DNA of 64,000 nucleotides, from positions 186,001-250,000 of the forward strand of contig NZ_FNZK01000002.1 of the NCBI RefSeq assembly GCF_900109225.1, written 5' to 3'. Shown one piece after another: positions 12,143 to 32,941 of this stretch (position 1 is its first letter; the number at the start of each line of letters is the position of its first letter). The notes under the pieces are model-generated. The model was not told where the DNA came from, searched no databases, and saw nothing but the letters and a program-made list of their open reading frames with translations. The translations under genes and the position numbers were made by a program. The stretch is from Propionispira arboris. GTDB taxonomy: Bacteria; Bacillota; Negativicutes; Selenomonadales; Selenomonadaceae.

Positions 12143-12202
12143 TTTAAGTATAAAACATATAACTTGACAATAGTATGTCGAGTTATATGTTTTATACTTA
12201 AA
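12143..12202. promoter_or_regulatory. 60-bp near-perfect palindrome containing regulator operator and promoters
   Basis: Two 26-base arms (12143-12168 and 12177-12202) match with one mismatch around an 8-base centre. The central part AACTTGAC...GTCGAGTT is the second copy of the 11195-11220 site. On the plus strand it contains TTGACA (12164-12169) and TATGTT with a 16-base spacer, so transcription in both directions is possible. Confidence 0.7.
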
Positions 12203-17545: not shown

Positions 17546-18556
17546 ATGAAAAAAATACGAAAAAGTCTTCTGTTATGTTTTATTTTGGCTGCAATGGTTA
17601 TGAGCTTGAGCGGCTGTGGGCAAAGTAATAACAATGATGCAGGTGCTGCAACGGCCCAAAAGGTTGTGATTTATACCAATGCCGATAAGGAAGCTGTAGA
17701 TGCCATGCAAAATAGTCTTAATGCCGCGGGGTATGAGGGGGAATATGTACTGCAAACGATGGGAACATCAGAACTTGGTGGTAAACTCATTGCTGAGGGG
17801 GATAAAATTGAAGCCAATTTAGTAACAATGAGTTCATACTTTATTGATAGTGCACAAAAGCAGCATAACATGTTTGTTGATTTGGATTTTGATACGAAAG
17901 CATTGGACAAATATCCAGCCTATTATACGCCAATCCTGGCGAATACGGGAGCGATCTTTGTTAATACGCAAGTGCTTACAGAGAAAGGGCTGCCTATGCC
18001 AAAGTCGATAAAAGATTTAACGAAAGATGAATATAAAGGGCTCGTTTCCATTCCTAACATAATGAATTCATCAACGGCATGGCTATTGCTGCAGGCTATT
18101 ATCAGTGAATATGGAGAGGTTGAAGGTAAGGAGATTTTGCATAAGTTGATTGAAAATTGCGGCCCACACATCGAAGCTTCCGGATCGGGACCAATAAAAA
18201 AAGTTAGAATTGGTGAAGTGGCAGTAGGATTTGGACTCCGCCATCAAGCGGTAGCAGATAAGGCTGCGGGAAAGCCGATTGATTATATTGATCCAATAGA
18301 AGGTAATTATACGCTTACGGAATCCATCGCAGTTGTTAAAAAAGAAGATACAGCGACGACAAAACTTGCAATGGAAATGGCAAAAGTCATCATTGAAAAA
18401 GCCAGACCTGAATTGATTAAAAGTTATCCGGTAGCTTTATATCAAGGCGAATCGATAACGGATTTAAATAAGGCTGGTAATCCAAAAACCTTTAATGAAC
18501 CCTTGACAGTAGAACTTCTTATGGCACATCAAGCTTTTTTCAAAGCGGCACAATAA
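17546..18556 (+). CDS. 2-aminoethylphosphonate ABC transporter substrate-binding lipoprotein
   Basis: A 336-residue extracytoplasmic binding protein with a lipoprotein signal peptide: basic start MKKIRK, hydrophobic core, and lipobox LSGC with Cys24. The mature part has the extracellular solute-binding family 1 fold (KVVIYTNADKEAVDAMQ, then GLVSIPNIMNSSTAWLLLQA). It would present 2-aminoethylphosphonate or a hydroxylated relative to the fused permease. AAGGGG lies before the ATG. Its place directly before phnW supports the substrate. Confidence 0.86.
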   Translation: MKKIRKSLLLCFILAAMVMSLSGCGQSNNNDAGAATAQKVVIYTNADKEAVDAMQNSLNAAGYEGEYVLQTMGTSELGGKLIAEGDKIEANLVTMSSYFIDSAQKQHNMFVDLDFDTKALDKYPAYYTPILANTGAIFVNTQVLTEKGLPMPKSIKDLTKDEYKGLVSIPNIMNSSTAWLLLQAIISEYGEVEGKEILHKLIENCGPHIEASGSGPIKKVRIGEVAVGFGLRHQAVADKAAGKPIDYIDPIEGNYTLTESIAVVKKEDTATTKLAMEMAKVIIEKARPELIKSYPVALYQGESITDLNKAGNPKTFNEPLTVELLMAHQAFFKAAQ

Positions 18557-18585
18557 TAATGGGATAAAATGGAAGGGACCTATAT

Positions 18586-19683
18586 ATGGAAAATTATAAA
18601 CTTTTGACCCCCGGACCGTTAACTACAACAAGTAGTGTTAAAGAGGAGATGCTCTTTGATCGCTGCACCTGGGATGATGATTATAAAAAAATGACACAAC
18701 AGATTCGCCGTCGTCTTTTAGAGATCGCCCTTGTATCACCGCATACATATACAGCGGTTTTACTGCAAGGAAGTGGAAGCTTTGGCGTAGAAGCTGTTTT
18801 GGCAACATGCATTCAACCAGAAGATAAATGTCTTATTATTGTCAATGGTGCGTATGGAGAAAGAATGGTAACCATGGCAAAATATATTGGGATAAATTAT
18901 GTTGTTTATAGTGTCCCATATGACAGGATACCTGCAGTGAATGATATAGCTGTGATGCTAAAAAATGATCGCTGTATCACGCATATTGCAATGGTACATT
19001 GCGAAACGACAACGGGTATACTCAATCCGCTTGAAGAGATAGCAAATATTTGTAAAAAGAATAATATAACTTTTATTGTTGATGCTATGAGCAGCTTTGG
19101 TGGTATAGAAATTAAGGTTGAGGATTTAGCGATTGATTATCTGATAAGTAGTGCAAATAAATGTATTCAAGGTGTGCCAGGTTTTTGTTTTGTGGTGGCT
19201 AAAATTGAAAAATTGTTAAGCTGCCAGGGAACTGCAAAAAGTTTATCGTTGGATTTATATGATCAGTGGAAATGTATGGAAAAAGAAGGGAAGTGGCGAT
19301 TTACTTCGCCCACCCATGTTGTAGCAGCTTTTTCTAAGGCACTTGAAGAATTAACCGCAGAAGGCGGTGTTCTTGCACGCTATAAACGCTATCGAGAAAA
19401 TAATAGGGTGCTTAGAGACAAACTCAAAGCTATGGGCATTACTGCATATATAAGAGAAGAAGTTCAATCTCCAATTATAACGACCTTCCTGTTTCCCGGT
19501 ATAAAGTTTGACTTTGCTGATTTCTACCAGTATGTTAAAGCCAATGGGTTTGTTTTATATCCCGGGAAGCTCACTGATGTGAATACTTTTAGAATTGGGA
19601 ATATCGGTGAAGTCTATAAACAAGATATTGTGCAACTATGCGATATAATCGAAAAATATATGGAGGAGAGAATCAATGAATAA
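18586..19683 (+). CDS. phnW: 2-aminoethylphosphonate-pyruvate transaminase
   Basis: A 365-residue PLP enzyme of class V aminotransferases. The start LLTPGPLTTTSSVK is typical of PhnW, Lys192 in SSANKCIQGVPGF binds PLP, and Asp166 in IVDAMSSFGG pairs with the cofactor. It moves the amino group of 2-aminoethylphosphonate to pyruvate, giving phosphonoacetaldehyde and alanine. Its end overlaps phnX by 8 bases, which fits tight coupling to the hydrolase that removes the reactive aldehyde. Confidence 0.93.
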   Translation: MENYKLLTPGPLTTTSSVKEEMLFDRCTWDDDYKKMTQQIRRRLLEIALVSPHTYTAVLLQGSGSFGVEAVLATCIQPEDKCLIIVNGAYGERMVTMAKYIGINYVVYSVPYDRIPAVNDIAVMLKNDRCITHIAMVHCETTTGILNPLEEIANICKKNNITFIVDAMSSFGGIEIKVEDLAIDYLISSANKCIQGVPGFCFVVAKIEKLLSCQGTAKSLSLDLYDQWKCMEKEGKWRFTSPTHVVAAFSKALEELTAEGGVLARYKRYRENNRVLRDKLKAMGITAYIREEVQSPIITTFLFPGIKFDFADFYQYVKANGFVLYPGKLTDVNTFRIGNIGEVYKQDIVQLCDIIEKYMEERINE

Positions 19684-20497
19684 AGTTGCTGGTGTAATAT
19701 TTGACTGGGCGGGAACAACCGTCGATTTTGGCTGTTTCGCGCCGGTAAATGTATTTGTTAAGATCTTTAAAACAGTAGGAATCAATGTAACAATTGCTGA
19801 AGCCAGGCTGCCTATGGGAATCCTAAAAAGAGACCATCTCAAGGTTATGCTGGAAATGCCAAGAATCAGTAAAAAATGGCAAGAACAATATGGCAGATGT
19901 TTTAATGAATACGATATTGATGAATTGTATTTGAAATTTGAGTCAATGCTGTTGTTGTCTCTTGAGGAATATACACAGCTGCTGCCAGGAGTAATAGAAA
20001 CGGTGAGCAAGCTTAGAAAAAACGGATTGAAGATTGGGTCAACGACGGGATATACGGATACTATGCTAAACATAGTAAGGCAAGGCGCTAAGACACAAGG
20101 TTACGAACCTGATTTTTGGATTACACCTGATTCAATAAATGGCATGGGACGACCGAATCCATATATGATATTTAGAAATATGGAGGCTCTAAAATTAACA
20201 GCACCATGGCAAGTTGTAAAAATTGGGGATACGGAGGCAGATATAAAAGAAGGATTAAATGCTGGCGTATGGTCAGTGGGCGTAGCAGTTGGAAGTTCAC
20301 AAATGGGACTTAGCTATGACGAATTTATTGGATTATCGGATAGCGAACAAAAAAGCTTCATAAGAAAAACAGAACAGACATTTTTAAATTATGGTGCGAA
20401 CTTTACCATTGCGACTATGGAAGAAATCCCTGAGCTGCTTAAAAATATTAATACACTGCTTGCAAAAGGAAAAAGGCCTTATGCTCTATCAAACTGA
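19676..20497 (+). CDS. phnX: Phosphonoacetaldehyde hydrolase (phosphonatase)
   Basis: A 273-residue HAD-family enzyme that splits the C-P bond of phosphonoacetaldehyde to acetaldehyde and phosphate. The nucleophile is Asp10 in IFDWAGTT, and Lys51 in MGILKRDHLKVML is the Schiff-base lysine special to this family. The late acidic motif is KIGDTEADIKEG. GGAGAG precedes the ATG. It overlaps both phnW upstream and the aminotransferase-like gene downstream, so all three are translated as a block. Confidence 0.94.
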   Translation: MNKVAGVIFDWAGTTVDFGCFAPVNVFVKIFKTVGINVTIAEARLPMGILKRDHLKVMLEMPRISKKWQEQYGRCFNEYDIDELYLKFESMLLLSLEEYTQLLPGVIETVSKLRKNGLKIGSTTGYTDTMLNIVRQGAKTQGYEPDFWITPDSINGMGRPNPYMIFRNMEALKLTAPWQVVKIGDTEADIKEGLNAGVWSVGVAVGSSQMGLSYDEFIGLSDSEQKSFIRKTEQTFLNYGANFTIATMEEIPELLKNINTLLAKGKRPYALSN

Positions 20498-21836
20498 TTT
20501 CAACCGTGAAGGTGATGTTAATTTTAGTCCGTTAAGAAAGAATTGGCTTGATACGATAGGTGGAGAAACCATCGAGGTATTAAAAGCGGATGAATCTATA
20601 TTCATGCGACAATCCATGTCAACTCCCTGCTTGAATGTTATCGTAGATGCGGTCGGTGCCTATATAACAGATAAAAATGGCAAAAAATATCTGGATTTTC
20701 ATGGAAACAGTATTCATCAGGTCGGTTATAAAAATTCAGCAGTCATTGCAGCGGTTAAGAAACAATTTGATGAATTGCCTTTTATCCCGAGGCGATATAC
20801 TGCTAATATTGCAATAGATGCAGCACAAGCATTGAACGATAAAACAACATCAAAAGATTACAAAGTTTTATTTACACCATCTGGTAGTGCTGCTGTAGGA
20901 ATTGCCCTTAAAATGACCCGTAAAATTACTGGCAGACATAAAGTGATCTCTATGTGGGAGTCTTTTCACGGAGCAGGGCTGGATGCTATTTCGGTGGGAG
21001 GTGAATCTGTTTTTCGGAAAGATATGGGAGCTCTTATGCCAGGTGGCATAAGAGCAATACCATACAATGCGTATAGGAATCTTATACATAGCAGCTGTCC
21101 GGAAACTGTCGCAGCATTTTGTCTGGATTATATTGAATATATCATTAAAAATGAAGGGGCTATAGGAGCTATATTACTTGAACCCATTCGCGCAACAGAC
21201 ATTCATATTCCACCGCGATCCTATTTTACAAGGTTGCGAGAAATCTGTGATGAAAATGATATATTGTTAATTTTTGATGAGATTCCAACCGCGTTTGGTA
21301 GAAGCGGAATGTTTTATGTACACCAAAATTTTGGCGTTGAACCAGATATACTTGTACTTGGTAAAGGGATTGGTGGAGGTATTGTACCGCAGGCCGCGGT
21401 TCTCGTTAAATCCAAGTACGATTGTGCACAGGATATCTCGTTAGGACATTATACGCATGAGAAACCAGCAGCTGGCTGTGCAGCTATTTGTGCAACTATA
21501 AAATATATAGATGAACATAAACTCTTGGAAAACTGCCGAAACCAAGCTGCATTTGCCTTACAGTATTCGGAAAACCTTTATAACAAGTATCAATGTATCG
21601 GTGATTTTCGGATAAAAGGTTTATTGATGTCCTTTGAACTTGTTACCGATAGAGTTTCAAAGGGGAAAAATGATAAGCTTGCGGAAGCGATTCTCTATTA
21701 TTGTCTGGAACATGGATTGTCCTTTAAATTATCAGCGGGAAATTGTATCACGTGGCATCCACCGCTCATTGTCACCACGGAACAATTGACTTTTGCCTTT
21801 CAATTGTTAGAAGAAGCGATAAAAAACAATTGTTGA
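20481..21836 (+). CDS. pbfA: Class III aminotransferase-fold enzyme, PbfA-like ((R)-1-hydroxy-2-aminoethylphosphonate ammonia-lyase)
   Basis: A 451-residue class III aminotransferase-fold PLP protein. FTPSGSAAVGIALKM binds the phosphate, LIFDEIPTAFGRSG carries the cofactor aspartate, and VLGKGIGGGIVP the lysine. Such proteins next to phnW/phnX include PbfA, which lyses (R)-1-hydroxy-2-aminoethylphosphonate to phosphonoacetaldehyde and ammonia. The position makes this the best guess; a second transaminase is the alternative. ATG 20481 is chosen because it overlaps phnX by 17 bases with AAGGA upstream, and similarity begins there. Confidence 0.78.
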   Translation: MLYQTDFNREGDVNFSPLRKNWLDTIGGETIEVLKADESIFMRQSMSTPCLNVIVDAVGAYITDKNGKKYLDFHGNSIHQVGYKNSAVIAAVKKQFDELPFIPRRYTANIAIDAAQALNDKTTSKDYKVLFTPSGSAAVGIALKMTRKITGRHKVISMWESFHGAGLDAISVGGESVFRKDMGALMPGGIRAIPYNAYRNLIHSSCPETVAAFCLDYIEYIIKNEGAIGAILLEPIRATDIHIPPRSYFTRLREICDENDILLIFDEIPTAFGRSGMFYVHQNFGVEPDILVLGKGIGGGIVPQAAVLVKSKYDCAQDISLGHYTHEKPAAGCAAICATIKYIDEHKLLENCRNQAAFALQYSENLYNKYQCIGDFRIKGLLMSFELVTDRVSKGKNDKLAEAILYYCLEHGLSFKLSAGNCITWHPPLIVTTEQLTFAFQLLEEAIKNNC

Positions 21837-21870: not shown

Positions 21871-22019
21871 TTTCGCATTTATGGAAAACTAAAAAACTGC
21901 ATATTGTTGAATACCCCCTTTGGATAGACAGTTAACTAATAAAACTGTCTGAGCAAAGGGGGTATCTTAATCTCTATAGTGCTTTAAGTTATTTTGGGAA
22001 CAACATATAATTATTGAAT
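21871..22019 (+). repeat. Dispersed palindromic intergenic repeat, copy 1
   Basis: About 149 bases nearly identical to 42045-42198. The centre is a hairpin with ATACCCCCTTTG (21911-21922) pairing with CAAAGGGGGTAT (21954-21965), and inner ACAGTT/AACTGT. It lies just after the phosphonate operon and may stop or protect its transcript, though no T-run follows. Confidence 0.85.
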
Positions 22020-22256: not shown

Positions 22257-22382
22257 TTGTTAAGAACAGTATTTATGCCTATAATAAATACATGAAAAGA
22301 ATTTACAGATAAAGCTGTATGGCAAAGGCGCCATTTTTGCAAGGAATTTGCAAAATGTTGCTTTTGCTGTACAGCTTTTTTT
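22257..22382 (+). promoter_or_regulatory. Promoter and terminator-like leader of the deiminase gene
   Basis: TTGTTA (22257-22262), a 17-base spacer and TATAAT (22280-22285) form a strong sigma-A promoter. The roughly 100-base leader contains a small TTTTGCAA/TTTGCAAAA hairpin and a long stem in which AAAGCTGTA (about 22311-22319) pairs with TACAGCTTT, followed by seven T residues just before the ribosome site. The layout resembles an attenuator or riboswitch expression platform, but I do not recognise a known aptamer. Confidence 0.6.
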
Positions 22383-22397
22383 ATGGGGGATGAAGGT

Positions 22398-23243
22398 ATG
22401 AGTTATGTCAAAAATGCTACAAATACGTTAAAAAAGGTTTTATTGTGTCCACCTACTTATTTTGAATTTGAGCCAATCAACGTAATTACGGAAGAGTGGC
22501 TTAGGCAGGGGGAAAGCGTAAATAAAGAAGCTTGCCTGAGAGAGCATGCAGATTTTGTACAGGCATATAGGGAAAATGACGTAGAGGTTGTTCTTATGGA
22601 ACCAACACCGGGTCTGACCTATGAAGTTTTCGCCAGGGACTTTGGTGGTTGTGTAGCAGAAGGTTATATTATGGGTAAATTCAGGGAACCCTGCCGTGTC
22701 GGAGAAACGGAAAAATATGAAGCCAAAATGAAAGAACTTGGAATTGCACCGATTGCACGTTGTACGTCGGGAGCCTTTGAAGGCGGTGATTTCTGGCTTC
22801 TGGATGAATACACGATTGTCCATGGGATTATTGCTAGAACGGATCAGGATGGTTATATAAATATTAAGCGTCAAATGCAGACATTGGGTTATACGATGAT
22901 AGGGATACCCTGCAATAGAGAAAATCTTCATTTAGATATGTGTTTTAACATTGTTGCTGATAAGGTTGCGGTTGTATGTAAAGCTGCATTGCCGGATTTT
23001 TTCTTAAAGATGTTAGAAAAGAGACATTTTACATTAATTGATGTTCCGCAGGAAGGCGTATTCAGGCATTATTGCAATTTACAAGCATTAGGTGCAGGAC
23101 GGGTTATCTCTTTTACGGACAATAAAAATGTTAATGAAAAAATGCAAACTTTGGGACTTAACGTGATTCGAGTAGATCTTGTGGAAATTCTAAAGGGCGG
23201 TGGAGGTCCTCACTGTATGACATTTCCTCTGCTGAGGGTATAA
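22398..23243 (+). CDS. Arginine deiminase / dimethylarginine dimethylaminohydrolase-fold enzyme
   Basis: A 281-residue guanidine-modifying enzyme of the pentein fold. The expected active-site residues are visible: Asp81 in ARDFGG, FEGGDF with Glu128 and Asp131, HLDMCFN with His178 and Asp180, and Cys273 in GGGGPHCMTFPL. The family hydrolyses guanidino groups to ureido groups, or transfers amidines. ATG 22398 with GGGGGA seven bases before it is preferred to ATG 22383, which lies in the terminator-like hairpin. With the transporter and the carbamoylase-like hydrolase downstream, a guanidino acid is the likely substrate (inference). Confidence 0.85.
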   Translation: MSYVKNATNTLKKVLLCPPTYFEFEPINVITEEWLRQGESVNKEACLREHADFVQAYRENDVEVVLMEPTPGLTYEVFARDFGGCVAEGYIMGKFREPCRVGETEKYEAKMKELGIAPIARCTSGAFEGGDFWLLDEYTIVHGIIARTDQDGYINIKRQMQTLGYTMIGIPCNRENLHLDMCFNIVADKVAVVCKAALPDFFLKMLEKRHFTLIDVPQEGVFRHYCNLQALGAGRVISFTDNKNVNEKMQTLGLNVIRVDLVEILKGGGGPHCMTFPLLRV

Positions 23244-23268
23244 CGTATAAAAACATATATGTTCATTA

Positions 23269-23311
23269 AGCAAGGGCGCTTAATTTAGAATGAATGCCCT
23301 TGCTTTTTTAT
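23269..23311 (+). terminator. Terminator after the deiminase gene
   Basis: AGCAAGGGC (23269-23277) pairs with GCCCTTGCT (23296-23304), followed by a T-rich run. Confidence 0.8.
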
Positions 23312-23348
23312 TGTGAATTTTAATGAGCCGTAGATAGGAGAAAAAGAA

Positions 23349-24143
23349 ATGAAAGATGACTTTAGGCTGCGCCAGAGTATTAACAAAAAAACATATATGA
23401 TGATTACAGCAGTTACTTTTATCATATTTCTTGTTTTTTGGTATGTTGTTACAGCAGGCGGATTTGTAAAAGCTATGTTTTTACCGGCACTTACAAGTGT
23501 TTTGAAAAACCTTGCAGAAGGAACAGCGGACGGGAGTTTGGGGAGCAATACGGCTATAAGTATTTACCGCATTACAATGGGCTTTGCGGCAGCTGTTGCA
23601 TTAGGGGTTCCCATTGGTATTTTATGCGGTTGCTTTCAGAAAGTAGAAGCGGTGATTAGTCCACTCTGTGAATTTATTCGTTATATGCCAGTTCCAGCAT
23701 TTGTACCTCTTGTTATGGTGTGGGCTGGAATTGGCGAGATGGCAAAAATTATTGTGGTATTTATAGGGACCTTTTTTCAGATGATTTTGATGATTGCTGA
23801 TGATGCCAGACTGGTTCCAGAGGATCTTTTATCAGCAAGCTATACTTTAGGAACGAAACGATGGAGTACGATTTTCAAGGTATTGATTCCGGCGATGGGA
23901 CCTAAAATTATGCTTACATTGCGGGTGATGATCGGCTGGGCATGGACGTATCTTGTCGTTGCTGAACTTGTGGCATCGAATTCAGGCTTGGGTTATACAA
24001 TTCTTAAAGCACAGCATTTTTTTAAGACAGATGCTATTTTTTCAGGCATTCTTGTTATTGGCTTTTTGGGACTGATTACCGATCGCTTTTTTGCTTTGCT
24101 GATTAAGCGGATGTTTCCGTGGGATGAAAGGAGCAATCCATGA
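23349..24143 (+). CDS. ABC transporter permease, taurine/sulfonate/nitrate type
   Basis: A 264-residue SsuC/TauC-like permease with about six membrane segments. The EAA loop that contacts the ATPase reads ASYTLGTKRWSTIFKVLIPA, and PVPAFVPLVMVWAG is a typical family stretch. It opens a permease-ATPase-binding protein operon and overlaps the ATPase start by 4 bases. Members of this branch import taurine, sulfonates, nitrate, cyanate, thiamine precursors and related compounds; the neighbours argue for a guanidino or ureido compound. Confidence 0.87.
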   Translation: MKDDFRLRQSINKKTYMMITAVTFIIFLVFWYVVTAGGFVKAMFLPALTSVLKNLAEGTADGSLGSNTAISIYRITMGFAAAVALGVPIGILCGCFQKVEAVISPLCEFIRYMPVPAFVPLVMVWAGIGEMAKIIVVFIGTFFQMILMIADDARLVPEDLLSASYTLGTKRWSTIFKVLIPAMGPKIMLTLRVMIGWAWTYLVVAELVASNSGLGYTILKAQHFFKTDAIFSGILVIGFLGLITDRFFALLIKRMFPWDERSNP

Positions 24144-24976
24144 TGCAAAAAACAGCAGCAGATGATATGGAAGCAGCTTTTGCGGTAAATGCCGCTGCCA
24201 ATAAAATTATTCTTCACAATGTTGGAAAATCCTATAAAATAGGCAAGGGGAACTTTACGGCAATTGCAAATGTGAATATAACAATTCAGGATAATGACTT
24301 TGCTTGTATTGTCGGACCATCCGGCTGTGGAAAATCAACTTTGCTGCATATGCTGGCAGGTCTTGATTTTCCCACACAGGGAGCAATATGGATCAATAAT
24401 AAAAAAGTGACTTCTCCAGGAGCAGACCGGGGGATGGTTTTTCAGACTTACACGCTTTTTCCCTGGATGACAGTGGAGGATAATATCCAATTTGGCTTAA
24501 AACTGAAAAAAATGCCCATAAAACAAATAGAGGAAATTACAGATAAATATTTAGAGGATATTAAGCTTACAAAATTTCGAAAGAGCTATCCTAAGGAATT
24601 ATCAGGAGGTATGAAGCAACGTGTTGCTATCGCCAGGGCTCTGGCAAATCAGCCCGAAGTCATTTTAATGGATGAACCCTTCGGCGCGCTGGATCAATAT
24701 ACGAAAAACAGGATGCAGCTTTTGTTACGGGAACTTTGGCAAAAAGAACAATCGACGATTGTATTTGTTACGCATGATATTGATGAAGCTGTTTTTCTGG
24801 CTACTAAGATTTTTGTTATGGATGCGCATCCCGGAAAAGTTAAAGAGGTTGTGAATATAGGGATAGGTGAGAACCGAACGCTGGAGGTAAAGGATACTTT
24901 TGAATTTATTCAACTTCGCAAATATATCAATGAACTTCTTTATGATCATCAGGACGATGATGAAGAAAATATATAG
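24140..24976 (+). CDS. ABC transporter ATP-binding protein, taurine/sulfonate/nitrate type
   Basis: A 278-residue SsuB/TauB-like ATPase: Walker A GPSGCGKST, Q-loop MVFQTYTLFPW, signature LSGGMKQR, Walker B VILMDEPFGALD, and switch histidine in FVTHDIDEAV. ATG overlaps the permease stop (ATGA), and a second ATG follows at once. An N-terminal extension of about 20 residues precedes the nucleotide-binding domain; the C-terminus is acidic (HQDDDEENI). It energises the permease encoded just upstream. Confidence 0.9.
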   Translation: MMQKTAADDMEAAFAVNAAANKIILHNVGKSYKIGKGNFTAIANVNITIQDNDFACIVGPSGCGKSTLLHMLAGLDFPTQGAIWINNKKVTSPGADRGMVFQTYTLFPWMTVEDNIQFGLKLKKMPIKQIEEITDKYLEDIKLTKFRKSYPKELSGGMKQRVAIARALANQPEVILMDEPFGALDQYTKNRMQLLLRELWQKEQSTIVFVTHDIDEAVFLATKIFVMDAHPGKVKEVVNIGIGENRTLEVKDTFEFIQLRKYINELLYDHQDDDEENI

Positions 24977-25096
24977 CGAGTTTTTTACATAAAAACAGAA
25001 TATCTGGATAAGTATTTTTTATAGGGTGAAAAGTGAAGACCGCGCATTTTTTCTAAAAATTATATTGTTGGCGGGGACGATAAAATGGAGGGTATT

Positions 25097-26113
25097 ATGA
25101 AAAAAAATAAAGTGATCATTTTCTTTTTTATAGGGGCTTTGACAATATTTTTCCTTGTTGGCTGCGGCAATACAAAAAATGCAGAGCAGGGCAGTGGTGG
25201 ACCAAAGGGGCTTACAAAAATAAGTGTTGGGTTTACTTCATGGCCGACGAATATGATGATTTATTTAGCACAAGAGAAAGGTATTTTTGAAAAGAATGGT
25301 CTGGATGTTTCATCAGAGGAGTTTTCGTCGACGACAGAAAGCAGCAATGCTTTTCTGGCCGAAAACTTGGACATGTGCACGTATCCGGCACCAGATATAA
25401 TTGCACCCATCAGCCGGGGAGCAGATTTTAAGGTTATTATGATGACAGACAAGTCACTTGGATCAGATGGATTAGTTGTAAAACCTGCGATTCAGCGAAT
25501 TGAAGACCTGAAGGGTAAGACGATAGCAACACAGCTGTATAGTGTTGATCATATGTATTTATTGACTTTATTGGATGGAGCCGGAATGTCATCGGATGAT
25601 GTAAATATTGTTGATATGAGCATGTCGGATGCTGGAAATGCTTTTTTAGCAGGACAGGTAGATGCAGCTTCGATTTGGGAACCGTATTTAAGTAAGGCTG
25701 TTGCTGGTGGTGGAAAATTATTGTATTCAACGAAAGACAATCCAGATTTAATTACAGATTGCATTGCAGCTTCCCATAAATTTGTAACAGATAATCCAGA
25801 AGCAGTCGCTGCTTTTGTAAAAAGTTGGGATGAAGCTGTTGCCTATTGGAAAGAACATCCGGAAGAATCGGAAGCTTTGATGGCTAAAAAAATGAATGTT
25901 TCCGATAAGGAATTTCACGATATGATGGGTACATTGTATATTACGACGGTACAAGATAGTGTAAAAGGATTTTCCAAGGCGGAAGATGCGAGTTATTGGG
26001 GTTATACACAGCAAAAAATTGTTACATTTCTAAAAAAACTAAATGTTATTGAAAAAAAGATAGATGCAGGTTCTATAATTGATAGTACTTTTGTTAATGA
26101 GGCAGCAAAATAA
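25097..26113 (+). CDS. ABC transporter substrate-binding lipoprotein, SsuA/THI5/NMT1 type
   Basis: A 338-residue binding protein with a lipoprotein signal (MKKNKVIIFF..., lipobox LVGC with Cys23). The mature protein has the NMT1/THI5-like fold: VGFTSWPTNMMIYLAQEKGI at the start, then EDLKGKTIATQLYSVDHM and VDAASIWEPYLSKAV. The open frame begins at 25085, but that ATG is part of the GGAGGG site used for the ATG at 25097. A terminator follows at 26121-26158. The ligand is unknown; nitrogen-rich compounds fit the neighbours. Confidence 0.87.
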   Translation: MKKNKVIIFFFIGALTIFFLVGCGNTKNAEQGSGGPKGLTKISVGFTSWPTNMMIYLAQEKGIFEKNGLDVSSEEFSSTTESSNAFLAENLDMCTYPAPDIIAPISRGADFKVIMMTDKSLGSDGLVVKPAIQRIEDLKGKTIATQLYSVDHMYLLTLLDGAGMSSDDVNIVDMSMSDAGNAFLAGQVDAASIWEPYLSKAVAGGGKLLYSTKDNPDLITDCIAASHKFVTDNPEAVAAFVKSWDEAVAYWKEHPEESEALMAKKMNVSDKEFHDMMGTLYITTVQDSVKGFSKAEDASYWGYTQQKIVTFLKKLNVIEKKIDAGSIIDSTFVNEAAK

Positions 26114-26120
26114 AAAATTC

Positions 26121-26158
26121 GGCGCTTTCTATATAAAAATGAAAGCGCCGTGCTTTTT
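26121..26158 (+). terminator. Terminator after the binding-protein gene
   Basis: GGCGCTTTC (26121-26129) pairs with GAAAGCGCC (26141-26149), followed by GTGCTTTTTATG. Confidence 0.75.
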
Positions 26159-26196
26159 ATGTTATGTCTTACTGAGAGGAAAATGGAGGAAATTAT

Positions 26197-27435
26197 ATGA
26201 GAAAATTTGATTTAACAAGTGCGGCACAAGATGTTGTTGCTGAGCTGCGGGAACTGGCAAGTCTTACTTCCAATGAAAATGGGGCGCAGCGTATCGCTTG
26301 GACACCAATTTGGGATCGGTCCATTGAATGGTTTAAGGGCAAAATGCAGGCAGAAGGCGCGGAAATCCATATAGATGCTGCACATAATATATGGGCAAAG
26401 ATTGAAGGCGAGATGGAGGATGCTGTTGTTATCGGCAGCCATCTGGATTGTGTGCCCGATGGCGGCTGGCTGGATGGTGCATTAGGAATTGTTAGTGGTA
26501 TGGGGATTTTAAAGCAATTCGGTAAAAATGGAAAAAAACCAAAACATACAATCTATATTGTATGTTGGGCAGATGAAGAAGGCGCACGCTTTGGTTCAAG
26601 CTGCGTGGGTTCGGCAGCGGTAAGTGGTTCGCTGCATATTGAAGAAATTAAAAAACTTAAAGATAATGACGGTATATGTTTTTCTGATGCGTTAAAGCCA
26701 TATCATATGAAATTGGAAGATTTTCCGAAAGCAAGAAAAGAATTTTTAAAAAAGCATATAAAAGCATATCTTGAACTTCATATAGAGCAAGCTCCACTGC
26801 TCGAATCGCAGGGGAAATCCGTTGCCAGCGTTTACGGTATTACTGGCTGTGAACGTCAGTATATCATATTCACAGGGCAATCTGCTCATTCCGGTGCACC
26901 GCTTTCAATGCGGCGGGATGCTTTTCTCGCAGCAGCGCAGGCGGTTTTGGAATTTCGCAAGATTGGTTTACAGTACGATGCCTACTGCACAGTGGGAAAA
27001 ATAATTGTGGAACCAAATGTTGTAACGATTTTCCCAGGAAAATGCAAGATATCATTGGATCAACGTTCTATTCAGCCGGATATGCTTAAAATAATTTATG
27101 AAGAAGCACGAAAAGCTTGCGAGAAAGCAGCAAAAGCTAATAATGTATCTGTGTCGTTTGAACATGTATGGTCCAATCCGCCAACTGCTTTTGATGAAAA
27201 TTTGATAGCCGCTTGTGAAGCTTCAGTGTGGGAAGAAACAGGAGAAAACACAAGCATGTTTTCCGGTTCACTGCACGATGCTGCCGAAATTGCCAAAATT
27301 GTACCGTCGGTCATGATGTTTGCAATGTCCTCAGCAGGATTATCACATTGTAAAGAAGAAAATACACCTGATGGTGATTTGGAAACAGCGATACGAGCAT
27401 TTTTTCGTCTGGCAGAAAAAGTGATTCAAGGATAG
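26197..27435 (+). CDS. M20-family Zn-dependent hydrolase (N-carbamoyl-L-amino-acid hydrolase / allantoate amidohydrolase type)
   Basis: A 412-residue M20 amidase. Metal ligands are His82 in GSHLDCVPDGG, Asp93 in WLDGALG and the Glu pair in WADEEGARFG, with further metal or substrate residues in ELHIEQAPLLES and LSHCKEEN. The family cuts carbamoyl groups from ureido acids, releasing ammonia and CO2 (beta-ureidopropionase, allantoate amidohydrolase, carbamoylase). Behind a deiminase-fold enzyme this would complete guanidino acid to ureido acid to amino acid. The GGAGG site is strong. Confidence 0.88.
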   Translation: MRKFDLTSAAQDVVAELRELASLTSNENGAQRIAWTPIWDRSIEWFKGKMQAEGAEIHIDAAHNIWAKIEGEMEDAVVIGSHLDCVPDGGWLDGALGIVSGMGILKQFGKNGKKPKHTIYIVCWADEEGARFGSSCVGSAAVSGSLHIEEIKKLKDNDGICFSDALKPYHMKLEDFPKARKEFLKKHIKAYLELHIEQAPLLESQGKSVASVYGITGCERQYIIFTGQSAHSGAPLSMRRDAFLAAAQAVLEFRKIGLQYDAYCTVGKIIVEPNVVTIFPGKCKISLDQRSIQPDMLKIIYEEARKACEKAAKANNVSVSFEHVWSNPPTAFDENLIAACEASVWEETGENTSMFSGSLHDAAEIAKIVPSVMMFAMSSAGLSHCKEENTPDGDLETAIRAFFRLAEKVIQG

Positions 27436-27535
27436 TCAAAAGTGTGTACTTGTGAATCTATTATTCCTGGTTAAAGTCACAAATATAAAAAGATTTGTCA
27501 GATGAGGCTTTGATACTTTATAGGAGGCGCTGAAT

Positions 27536-28732
27536 TTGTTTTATGCGGATATTATGAAACTTCCTCAATTAAAGGAACTTGTCCTGTTAGGCGGGGCAAA
27601 AGGGATTCATCGACCAATTCGCTGGTTATATTTTGCTGATTGCATGGAATGTCTGGAAAACTCGGATAACCTGGGAGACTGGATTCATGGAGGAGAACTC
27701 ATTATTGTAACCAATATAAGTATTACCCGAAATATAAAAAAGCTGAAGCAATTTATGTATGCGGCAGATAAAAAGAACGCAGCAGGGTTTATTATTAACG
27801 TCGGGCAGATTTCTCCAGAGATTATTCAGGTGGCGGATACGCTTGCCATGCCTCTTTTTGAGCTTTCTTTGTCGATTAAACTGGTGGATTTATCGCAACT
27901 TGTCTGCAAAAAATTGATTGAACAAGAAAACAGAGAAAATGCTTTAGACCGTTTTTTTGCCGATCTTTTATACACGACGTATAAATCCGATATGGAAACT
28001 ATTTACAAAGCACAATATTATGGCATTGATTTGCAGAAACCAGCTTGCATCGCTATATTTAGGCTGTTTAGCGAAAAAGGGACAGTAAATGAAGCCGAAC
28101 AAGAGGAATATAGAACTAATTTGCAGAAGGCTATTCAATATGAATTTTATAATCAGGGAAGTAAAAATTTGCTGTTGCTTACGCAAAATAATGACATCAT
28201 TATTCGTATACCTTTATATACATTGCAAGCAGACATAAAAGAAGTTTTACAGCATATACGAAATTATTTTGCCCGATTTTGCAAGCTTTCCTTTTGGGTA
28301 GGTGTTAGTGATACTTGTGATACGGTAGAAGGTTTAAAGGCTGCAGTAAAAGATGCAGTCAAAACGATAAGAATTTCCCAGATCATGGATAAAAAAGAGC
28401 TATTTTACAAAGAAATGGGAATTTATTCTATATTAACCAATGTAGAAAATGAAAGTTTACTCGTTGATTATTATAAGGATCGTTTAGGCTTGCTGATCGA
28501 TTTTGATAAGCGACAGGATAAAAATTTATGCGATACATTGGAGACGTATTTGGAGTGTGACTGTAATGTCAGGAAGACCTCAAGTGTTTTATTTGTCCAC
28601 CGTAATACGTTAAGGAATAGGCTGGATAAAATAGAGAATATTTTAAACCAAAAAATAGAGGGACTTTCTTTTTGTATGGAATTGCAATTTGCTTTCAAAG
28701 TAAAAACATATTGTGATATGTTTTTACTATAA
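27536..28732 (+). CDS. PucR-family transcriptional regulator
   Basis: A 398-residue activator type regulator. The N-terminal PucR domain begins LPQLKELVLLGGAKGIHR and includes WIHGGELIIVTN; the C-terminus has the PucR helix-turn-helix KTSSVLFVHRNTLRNRLDKI. The TTG start at 27536 has GGAGG nine bases upstream. PucR proteins govern purine, allantoin and other nitrogen-compound catabolism, which supports the nitrogen-salvage reading of this cluster. Confidence 0.9.
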   Translation: MFYADIMKLPQLKELVLLGGAKGIHRPIRWLYFADCMECLENSDNLGDWIHGGELIIVTNISITRNIKKLKQFMYAADKKNAAGFIINVGQISPEIIQVADTLAMPLFELSLSIKLVDLSQLVCKKLIEQENRENALDRFFADLLYTTYKSDMETIYKAQYYGIDLQKPACIAIFRLFSEKGTVNEAEQEEYRTNLQKAIQYEFYNQGSKNLLLLTQNNDIIIRIPLYTLQADIKEVLQHIRNYFARFCKLSFWVGVSDTCDTVEGLKAAVKDAVKTIRISQIMDKKELFYKEMGIYSILTNVENESLLVDYYKDRLGLLIDFDKRQDKNLCDTLETYLECDCNVRKTSSVLFVHRNTLRNRLDKIENILNQKIEGLSFCMELQFAFKVKTYCDMFLL

Positions 28733-28776
28733 AATTTCACTGAAAATAAGAGCATTTTCAGGTGGGAGGCAATGAA

Positions 28777-29319
28777 ATGAGAGAAATGGATATTGGGAAA
28801 GCTTTTACTTTTTTAGAATCTGGACCAGTTACGTTGGTTACAACCTTTGACGGAAAGAAAAACAACATTATGACGATCTCATGGCATATGATCATGGATT
28901 TTAGCCCACATATTGCTATTTCTACAGGACCATGGAACACGTCTTTTGAAGTGATGATGAGGACAAAAGAGTGCGTTATTGCTGTTCCGGGAGTTAATTT
29001 GATTGAAGCTGTTATTGGGATTGGTACTGTTAATGGAGACATCGTGGATAAGTTTGATAAATTTTCTTTAACATCGCTTGCGGCTAAAACAGTTAAGGCA
29101 CCTCTTATTAAGGAATGTCTGAAATGTATTGAATGTAAGGTGATTGACTATGTAGAGAAACATGGTTTGGTTATTTTATCAGGAGAAAGAGCTTGGATAA
29201 ATGAAACGGCTGTTGAGCAACGAACATTTCATGCTGTGGGAGATGGAACTTTTATAGTGGATGGAGAAATGATGGAATACCGGGCTATGATGGGAAACCG
29301 TCTGCCACCGGGAGTATGA
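28777..29319 (+). CDS. Flavin reductase-like / FMN-binding split-barrel protein
   Basis: A 180-residue flavin reductase-domain protein: GPVTLVTTFDGKKNNIMTIS is the classical N-terminal barrel segment, followed by FSPHIAISTGPWNTSFEVM and a mid-protein VPGVNLIEAV. Three cysteines occur in KECLKCIECKV. The GTG at 28762 is part of GGGAGG, which serves ATG 28777. It probably binds FMN and reduces it or acts as a redox partner. Its link to the guanidino/ureido genes is positional only. Confidence 0.83.
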   Translation: MREMDIGKAFTFLESGPVTLVTTFDGKKNNIMTISWHMIMDFSPHIAISTGPWNTSFEVMMRTKECVIAVPGVNLIEAVIGIGTVNGDIVDKFDKFSLTSLAAKTVKAPLIKECLKCIECKVIDYVEKHGLVILSGERAWINETAVEQRTFHAVGDGTFIVDGEMMEYRAMMGNRLPPGV

Positions 29320-29495
29320 TTTTGAAATGTTTTCGATTACACAGAAGATCACAAGATCAAATGAAGGAAAATCTCTAATACCAATTCTTGATTTAATGTA
29401 TCAATGGGGAGAAAAACATATTATCAAATAATAAGTATTTTAATGTGCTTTAAGAATATTAGGTTCTATAATAAATGTTGGGGTAAGCAAAAAAA

Positions 29496-29700
29496 CGATG
29501 CGAAATTTTTTTCTTTTCTGCTTCAATTTGTATTAGTGACACAATAATTTCTCCCCTAATATACTTTGATTTAAGCATGGTATAATTATTTTTGTTATAC
29601 ATTTAAAACATCTAACGGTTCATTATTATAACACTAAAAAAATCAATAAAATATCGAATAGTTATAATCTTTATTTGTAAAGGAAATTATTTGCTAATAT
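29496..29700 (-). pseudogene. Remnant of promoter and 5' end of the methylmalonyl-CoA decarboxylase-like gene
   Basis: This stretch matches 35125-35430: AACGATGCGAA, then the coding start CAATTTGTATTAGTGAC, TTTCTCCCCTAATATACTTT and the upstream ATCTAACGGTT and ATATCGAATAGTTATAAT. About 100 bases inside the coding part are deleted. It is a decayed duplicate without a usable frame. Confidence 0.8.
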
Positions 29701-32167: not shown

Positions 32168-32941
32168 ATGACTAACAATAGATATGAGGGGGTAATTAAA
32201 GTAAACGTCTTTAATACGAGTCAATATATATTAGAAGTAGCTTTAAATAGAGACAAAGTAGAGTCATTTAATGAGTATCCTTTTTCTATACCTGCCATCG
32301 TAAAACTAAATGAAATTGAATTGCATCCCCATGTCACTTTTTTTGTTGGAGAAAATGGATCAGGTAAATCAACTTTAATTGAGGCTATAGCGGTAGCCTT
32401 TGGGCTTAATCCTGAAGGTGGGTCTAAACACTTCACCTTTTCAACGGAAAATTCTCATTCAGAATTGCATAGATACCTGGTCTTGCGCAAAGGGATCAAA
32501 CGGCCGAGAGATTCTTATTTTTTACGCGCCGAGAGCTTTTACAACGTAGCAACGAATATTGAAGAATTAGGCATAGGATATGTATATAGTGATAAGTCTT
32601 TACATCACCAGTCGCATGGCGAATCCTTTATGTCGTTATTTTTGCATCGTTTTTTAGGCAAAGGGCTCTATATCCTTGACGAACCGGAAGCGGCGTTATC
32701 TCCGATGAGACAATTAAGTTTGATTAGCCGAATTCATGAATTAGCTTCAAATAATTCGCAATTCATTATAGCGACACATTCGCCAATGCTGTTATCGTAT
32801 CCTAACTCTTATATTTATAACATCGATAATAATGGGATAAATCGGATTAAATATGAAGACACAGATCATTTTACTATAACTAAAAATTTTTTTAATCATT
32901 ATAAGATGATGCTTAATGAACTTATGAAGTTGGATGAATAG
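32168..32941 (+). CDS. Stand-alone AAA family ATPase
   Basis: A 257-residue ABC/SMC-like ATPase of the small AAA_21-type. Walker A is FVGENGSGKSTLIEAI, the Q-loop region follows, and the Walker B side reads LYILDEPEAALSPMRQLSL with switch FIIATHSP. The signature part is shortened to HQSHGESFMSLFLHRF. Such proteins are often partners in defence or DNA metabolism; no partner gene lies beside it. The ATG has no clear ribosome site. A deleted second copy lies at 13681-13853. Confidence 0.82.
   Translation: MTNNRYEGVIKVNVFNTSQYILEVALNRDKVESFNEYPFSIPAIVKLNEIELHPHVTFFVGENGSGKSTLIEAIAVAFGLNPEGGSKHFTFSTENSHSELHRYLVLRKGIKRPRDSYFLRAESFYNVATNIEELGIGYVYSDKSLHHQSHGESFMSLFLHRFLGKGLYILDEPEAALSPMRQLSLISRIHELASNNSQFIIATHSPMLLSYPNSYIYNIDNNGINRIKYEDTDHFTITKNFFNHYKMMLNELMKLDE

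Follow-up and report, generated by a model that had tools for sequence, protein, structure and literature searches.

The 64,000-nucleotide stretch of DNA analysed here, from Propionispira arboris, an anaerobe of the Negativicutes (contig NZ_FNZK01000002.1, positions 186,001 to 250,000; hereafter the window) carries a pentein-fold enzyme, a taurine-type ABC importer, an M20-family hydrolase, a PucR-family regulator and a flavin-reductase-like protein side by side. All seven genes are intact open reading frames (ORFs) on the + strand at the positions given in a preliminary description of the sequence, and a stretch resembling a ribosome-binding site lies upstream of every start codon (7/7). Family matches bear out the grouping of pentein, importer, M20 hydrolase and regulator made in that description, which had the genes but missed the conserved leader in front of them (22257-22397). 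The features are as follows.

22257..22397, + strand: promoter and leader with a long hairpin and T-run immediately 5' of the pentein start, a candidate attenuator or operator (promoter match, fold, Propionispora comparison)
22398..23243, + strand: pentein-fold guanidine-modifying hydrolase, a predicted guanidino-acid deiminase (PF19420, PF02274, active-site residues, AF2 model)
23349..24143, + strand: ABC importer permease, TauC/SsuC-type (PF00528; top NCBIfam model TauC, below cut-off; 78% to Propionispora)
24140..24976, + strand: ABC importer ATPase, TauB/NtrD-type (PF00005; SaoA/TauB/NtrCD top, below cut-off; 73% to Propionispora)
25097..26113, + strand: substrate-binding lipoprotein, NMT1/SsuA-type (PF09084; TIGR01728 above cut-off; nearest solved structures SsuA and TauA; 68% to Propionispora)
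26197..27435, + strand: M20 carbamoyl-amino-acid hydrolase, beta-ureidopropionase-like (PF01546; TIGR01879 above cut-off; motifs; clade in pyrimidine-degradation clusters)
27536..28732, + strand: PucR-family regulator (PF07905, PF17853, PF13556; 62% to Propionispora, same position)
28777..29319, + strand: flavin-reductase-like protein, adjacent (41-bp gap) and outside the conserved unit (PF01613; absent from the Propionispora locus)

The importer subunits belong to the NitT/TauT family; the binding protein scores above the TIGR01728 cut-off (193 bits, cut-off 163.5), and the TauA, TauB and TauC equivalogs are all below theirs. In Propionispora sp. 2/2-37, a member of another family, the same six genes stand in the same order at 62–81% identity (pentein 81%, permease 78%, ATPase 73%, binding protein 68%, M20 70%, PucR 62%), with flanks unrelated to those in the window and without the flavin reductase. 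Because of this shared order the conserved unit is taken as pentein–TauC–TauB–binding protein–M20–PucR, 22398–28732. The flavin reductase, for which no clear part had been seen earlier, is thus not conserved with it. A 53% relative lies upstream of an M20 and LIV-type importer set in another genome (G151, L088:10299-10904), which hints that its presence is perhaps not wholly accidental.

A congeneric genome (G310) has neither this pentein nor this M20. Window positions 12186 to 32470 (20.3 kb) are missing from it as one piece and the 98%-identical flanks abut. The right breakpoint falls inside an ORF (32168-32941) that the window has in full, which makes a deletion in G310 as likely as an acquisition here. 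The surroundings of the block yielded no tRNA gene. Since it is absent from a congeneric genome, the segment is accessory, as it might be if the genes were chance neighbours held in common through recent inheritance. Propionispora, however, is in another family, at the identities given above, and it differs in its flanks while conserving promoter and leader. The conserved gene order has already largely refuted the chance reading, which we regard as very improbable. A short dispersed repeat at 29455-29496 is present in about 15 copies in G310.

The pentein and its genomic partners

The pentein (281 amino acids) matches PF19420 with 135 bits and PF02274 with 89 bits. D81, E128, H178, D180 and C273, numbered from the ATG at 22398, are all present and are invariant across 16 aligned proteins; the active-site residues named in the preliminary description sit exactly where it had placed them. 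An AlphaFold model (pLDDT 93.6) finds ArgZ, AgrE, arginine deiminase (ADI) and DDAH as structural matches at Z of about 30-34, the fold searches serving to confirm the fold and not to infer the substrate. Fold, Z scores and invariant residues together place the protein in the pentein guanidine-modifying superfamily. Its scores fall far short of the cut-offs of all deiminase and DDAH equivalogs, with 68.7 bits against 489.1 for the ArcA model TIGR01078 and 88.1 against 300 for the DDAH model NF045659. Where the ArcA of the same genome has an Asn and the Arg of GRGGPRC, this pentein has Tyr75 and Gly268, and where ArgZ has Asn71 at the deiminase Asp position, it has Asp81. The latter would fit an enzyme whose reaction ends with the ureido compound and that depends on a partner. 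Two further residues invariant in the pentein family, R100 and R147, are candidates for carboxylate-binding arginines and would favour an acid as substrate. Because the five active-site residues are present, conversion of a guanidine to a ureido compound is the likely reaction.

The neighbours of related penteins point the same way. In a sample of roughly 380 Negativicutes genomes, at a threshold of E<=1e-30, this pentein was found at 15 loci, and an M20-family hydrolase adjoins it in 13/15; one of the two remaining loci is at a contig end. These counts rest on sampled genome searches, a single-sequence scan of contigs having yielded just three relatives. By our own rough estimate, with a few carbamoylase-type M20 genes in each genome, the probability of chance adjacency would be near 1% per locus. 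The M20 is of the TIGR01879 type in the window and in Propionispora and RocB-like (PF01546) in the other eleven. In Alphaproteobacteria a pentein of about 30% identity is paired with a carbamoylase-type Zn-dependent hydrolase. In Alisedimentitalea the pair lies beside a ProU-type importer and genes of the arginase family; on plasmids of Sinorhizobium and Phyllobacterium (Rhizobiales) it lies inside a polar-amino-acid-type importer set. The pairing, whose co-occurrence the preliminary description had proposed to search for, is therefore not limited to one genome, recurring in Propionispora and, with other importers, in Alphaproteobacteria. The alphaproteobacterial clusters of pentein and M20 (L027, L102, L107) differ in their importers and in their further genes, which may be an amidase, a class III aminotransferase or a pair of the arginase family.

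Other relatives have different neighbours. In a Syntrophomonadaceae metagenome-assembled genome (L031:3960-8696) a 73% pentein lies with a protein resembling ornithine transcarbamylase (OTC; 395 bits against a TIGR00658 cut-off of 281) and with a member of the amino-acid-kinase family that is 61% identical to the gene in the CarbKin position of the P. arboris arc cluster. On an Enterococcus mundtii plasmid (L026:6655-10840) a 49% pentein is beside another OTC-like protein, and in C. tyrobutyricum a 75% pentein is beside a 4-aminobutyrate (GABA) aminotransferase. Since close relatives adjoin enzymes that consume carbamoyl products, a ureido compound is the most likely product of the window pentein.

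These neighbourhoods also bear on whether the two enzymes share a pathway at all. The M20 could act on an imported ureido compound, such as N-carbamoyl-beta-alanine, and the pentein elsewhere, for example in guanidine or nitro detoxification, with only importer and regulator in common. Some M20 relatives are indeed accompanied by LIV-type importers but by no pentein (L086, L088, L089), and in structure the pentein closely matches NnhA, a 2-nitroimidazole nitrohydrolase. The pairing of pentein and M20 family recurs in separate lineages, however, and the other partners of the pentein are enzymes of carbamoyl chemistry, so that we hold two unconnected activities to be improbable.

Substrate choice

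Arginine is the obvious substrate to consider, and a route from arginine or methylarginine to citrulline, with the M20 as the citrullinase that RocB is thought to be, has several points in its favour. Sister penteins (46-59%) lie beside RocB-like M20 proteins, in two loci with an ornithine aminotransferase as well; DDAH is a structural neighbour of the pentein; and a review (PMC4813224) terms RocB a probable citrullinase. This second pentein group is always beside a RocB-like M20 (L033, L034, L035, L037-L041, L043, L093, L098, L099), one of the ornithine aminotransferases being at L034. It is probably a hydrolytic arginine-to-citrulline-to-ornithine route and would support RocB as citrullinase.

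Other observations speak against the arginine route. ArcA and all penteins linked to RocB keep an Asn six positions before the catalytic Asp; at that position the proteins of the window (Tyr75), Propionispora, C. tyrobutyricum and Syntrophomonadaceae have Tyr, and that of E. mundtii has Val. P. arboris encodes an ArcA apart from this pentein (426 bits to PF02274), two OTCs and an arc-like cluster, with arcA and arcB located elsewhere. C. tyrobutyricum retains both a RocB-linked and a window-type copy, as would be expected if the two differ in substrate. The Asp of TD-x-W-x-SMG and the GDG-NN motif are kept in five OTCs; in the two OTC-like partners the Asp is replaced by Asn or Met, and GDG-NN by GDI-YN or GNL-YN. 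By established knowledge, loss of this Asp is loss of the residue that binds the alpha-amino group of ornithine. The M20 of the window, moreover, is beta-ureidopropionase-like and not a RocB. Arginine is thus unlikely as the substrate, because of the resident arcA and arcB, the change of Asn to Tyr75 and the missing Asp in the partner transcarbamylases, and we give the arginine route little credence. In the substrate list of the preliminary description, arginine, which stood first, becomes an unlikely candidate.

The M20 hydrolase narrows the choice of acid. It scores 287.5 bits against TIGR01879 (hydantoinase/carbamoylase, cut-off 204) and keeps the GSHLD, DEEGARF, LHIEQ and GLSH motifs when compared with 3n5f and 1r3n. 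Its nearest relatives (53-71%) occur in just 10/380 Negativicutes genomes, and several sit with PreA, dihydropyrimidinase, a nucleobase permease, PucR, an aminotransferase and an Fe-alcohol dehydrogenase; the clusters with PreA and dihydropyrimidinase are those of reductive pyrimidine degradation. In P. arboris itself such a cluster holds an M20 paralogue (61%), an omega-aminotransferase, and a dihydropyrimidinase and PreA above their curated cut-offs. A tree groups the window and Propionispora M20s together within the pyrimidine-cluster clade (support 83/88). Because its nearest kin are found in these clusters, the window M20 appears beta-ureidopropionase-like, which upholds the carbamoylase assignment made earlier, refines it, and points to short omega-guanidino acids. 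An Asn-to-Thr change in the carboxylate site was considered as a clue to specificity and set aside, Thr being found throughout the Negativicutes clade.

From this clade and cluster context, the simplest guess for the ureido intermediate would be N-carbamoyl-beta-alanine, and hence 3-guanidinopropionate for the substrate, which we put forward tentatively. In C. tyrobutyricum, the GABA aminotransferase next to the pentein would support 4-guanidinobutyrate, which in our estimate comes close behind. The taurine-type importer leaves room for taurocyamine, which we think doubtful, and the remaining acids, among them creatine, guanidinoacetate and N-methylated forms, are unlikely even when taken together. 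4-Guanidinobutyrate, 3-guanidinopropionate and taurocyamine are natural compounds that occur in animals (PMC9772407). The P. arboris genome also encodes a GabT-like enzyme above cut-off, with a PucR and an aldehyde dehydrogenase beside its gene.

Proposed pathway and known systems

We consider it probable that the six genes form a unit for the uptake and degradation of an external guanidino acid without an alpha-amino group. The acid would be brought in by the NitT/TauT-type importer. Cys273 of the pentein would then attack the guanidinium carbon, the guanidinium group being held by Asp81 and Asp180 and acid/base catalysis falling to Glu128/His178, so as to free ammonia and leave a ureido acid, as the complete active site, fold and partners suggest. 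Family and clade suggest that the metal-dependent M20 would split the ureido group into CO2, ammonia and an omega-amino acid, and the last may feed aminotransferase routes for beta-alanine or GABA whose genes lie at other sites of the genome. From its position PucR would be expected to control the operon, perhaps together with the leader hairpin. The analysis partly supports the sequence of guanidino acid, ureido acid, and amino acid with CO2 and NH3 proposed in the preliminary description.

Several points weigh against this reading. The pathway chemistry is predicted, and sequence does not discriminate between ammonia and an alkylamine (as with DDAH) as the leaving group. The window-type pentein and M20 are known from one locus in two genomes only, and the penteins that rank third and fourth in closeness have different neighbours. 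An importer of the TauABC type is no diagnostic sign. The case against arginine leans in part on general knowledge that Asn160/Asp231-type residues hold the amino-acid head group in ADI and OTC structures.

Slightly short of an even chance, in our judgement, is the wider proposal that these penteins are an undescribed deiminase family whose guanidino acids lack an alpha-amino group and whose products go to alternative modules for removing the carbamoyl group: an M20 hydrolase in the window and Propionispora, with a shared cis leader, or a specialised transcarbamylase and carbamate kinase in Syntrophomonadaceae and on the E. mundtii plasmid. Loci of the latter type look like a putative deiminase pathway in which fermentation of a guanidino acid other than arginine would yield ATP.

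Several known systems share parts of this scheme. In the arginine deiminase pathway (arcABC) a pentein deiminase also gives a ureido product, and the Syntrophomonadaceae variant of the window clade likewise adds a transcarbamylase and a carbamate-kinase-like protein; the window pentein, however, is a 281-residue protein far under the ADI cut-off, without the ADI Asn and GRGGPRC Arg, and M20 hydrolysis takes the place of phosphorolysis. AguA deiminates agmatine and AguB then hydrolyses the carbamoyl group of N-carbamoylputrescine, which is the same two-step logic, but AguB is of the nitrilase family and its substrate is an amine, whereas here the hydrolase is an M20 and its substrate probably an acid. 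ArgZ/AgrE, the arginine dihydrolase, is the closest fold by VIA-align (Z 33.8), yet ArgZ performs both hydrolyses itself and differs at Asn71. Reductive pyrimidine degradation (PreAT, dihydropyrimidinase, beta-ureidopropionase) has a beta-ureidopropionase candidate in the clade of the window M20, although here the ureido acid would derive from a guanidino acid and not from a pyrimidine. The ureohydrolases GbuA, GpuA and human GDAH (PMC9772407) have the same likely substrates and release urea in one step, in contrast to two ammonia and CO2 in two steps here.

Such urea-releasing hydrolases are the known means of guanidino-acid breakdown that we found in the literature (PMC9772407). The component families are known, as is the deiminase-plus-hydrolase logic (for agmatine); in the open-licence literature we found neither a deiminase route for guanidino acids nor this gene combination, which is undescribed there. 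If true, the deiminase route would be a second solution for guanidino-acid breakdown, would explain genes annotated merely as 'arginine deiminase family protein', and could yield ATP in some anaerobes through the variant with transcarbamylase and carbamate-kinase-like protein. The reading gives a short and concrete list of candidate substrates.

Leader and upstream sequence

A promoter match (TTGTTA-17-TATAAT) lies at 22257-22285, and the hairpin just before the pentein start has a fold of -39.9 kcal/mol and is followed by a T-run. The window and Propionispora have in common CTGTATGGCAA[A/T]GGCGCC...GCTGTACAG[C/T]TTTTT and the promoter spacing, and the outer G-C pair of the hairpin is A-U in Propionispora. 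An Rfam scan of 10000-34000 gave no family at gathering score; a riboswitch reading was dropped, the relaxed scan giving implausible eukaryotic or plastid models only, all below gathering. The leader motif TATGGCAANGGCGCC is present in 45/379 genomes of the class and apparently enriched. A wider RNA class built on it was rejected: the loci inspected were mostly coding, and only the window and Propionispora showed a leader together with the terminator hairpin. The leader is thus a candidate attenuator or operator, two sequences being too few to claim an RNA family.

Further upstream, a long perfect hairpin (ATACCCCCTTTG...CAAAGGGGGTAT, -33.5 kcal/mol, without a T-run) lies at 21910-21967 between PbfA and the pentein. 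Positions 17546-21836, directly upstream, hold a 2-aminoethylphosphonate cluster in which PhnW, PhnX and PbfA are over cut-off, with an importer ahead of it.

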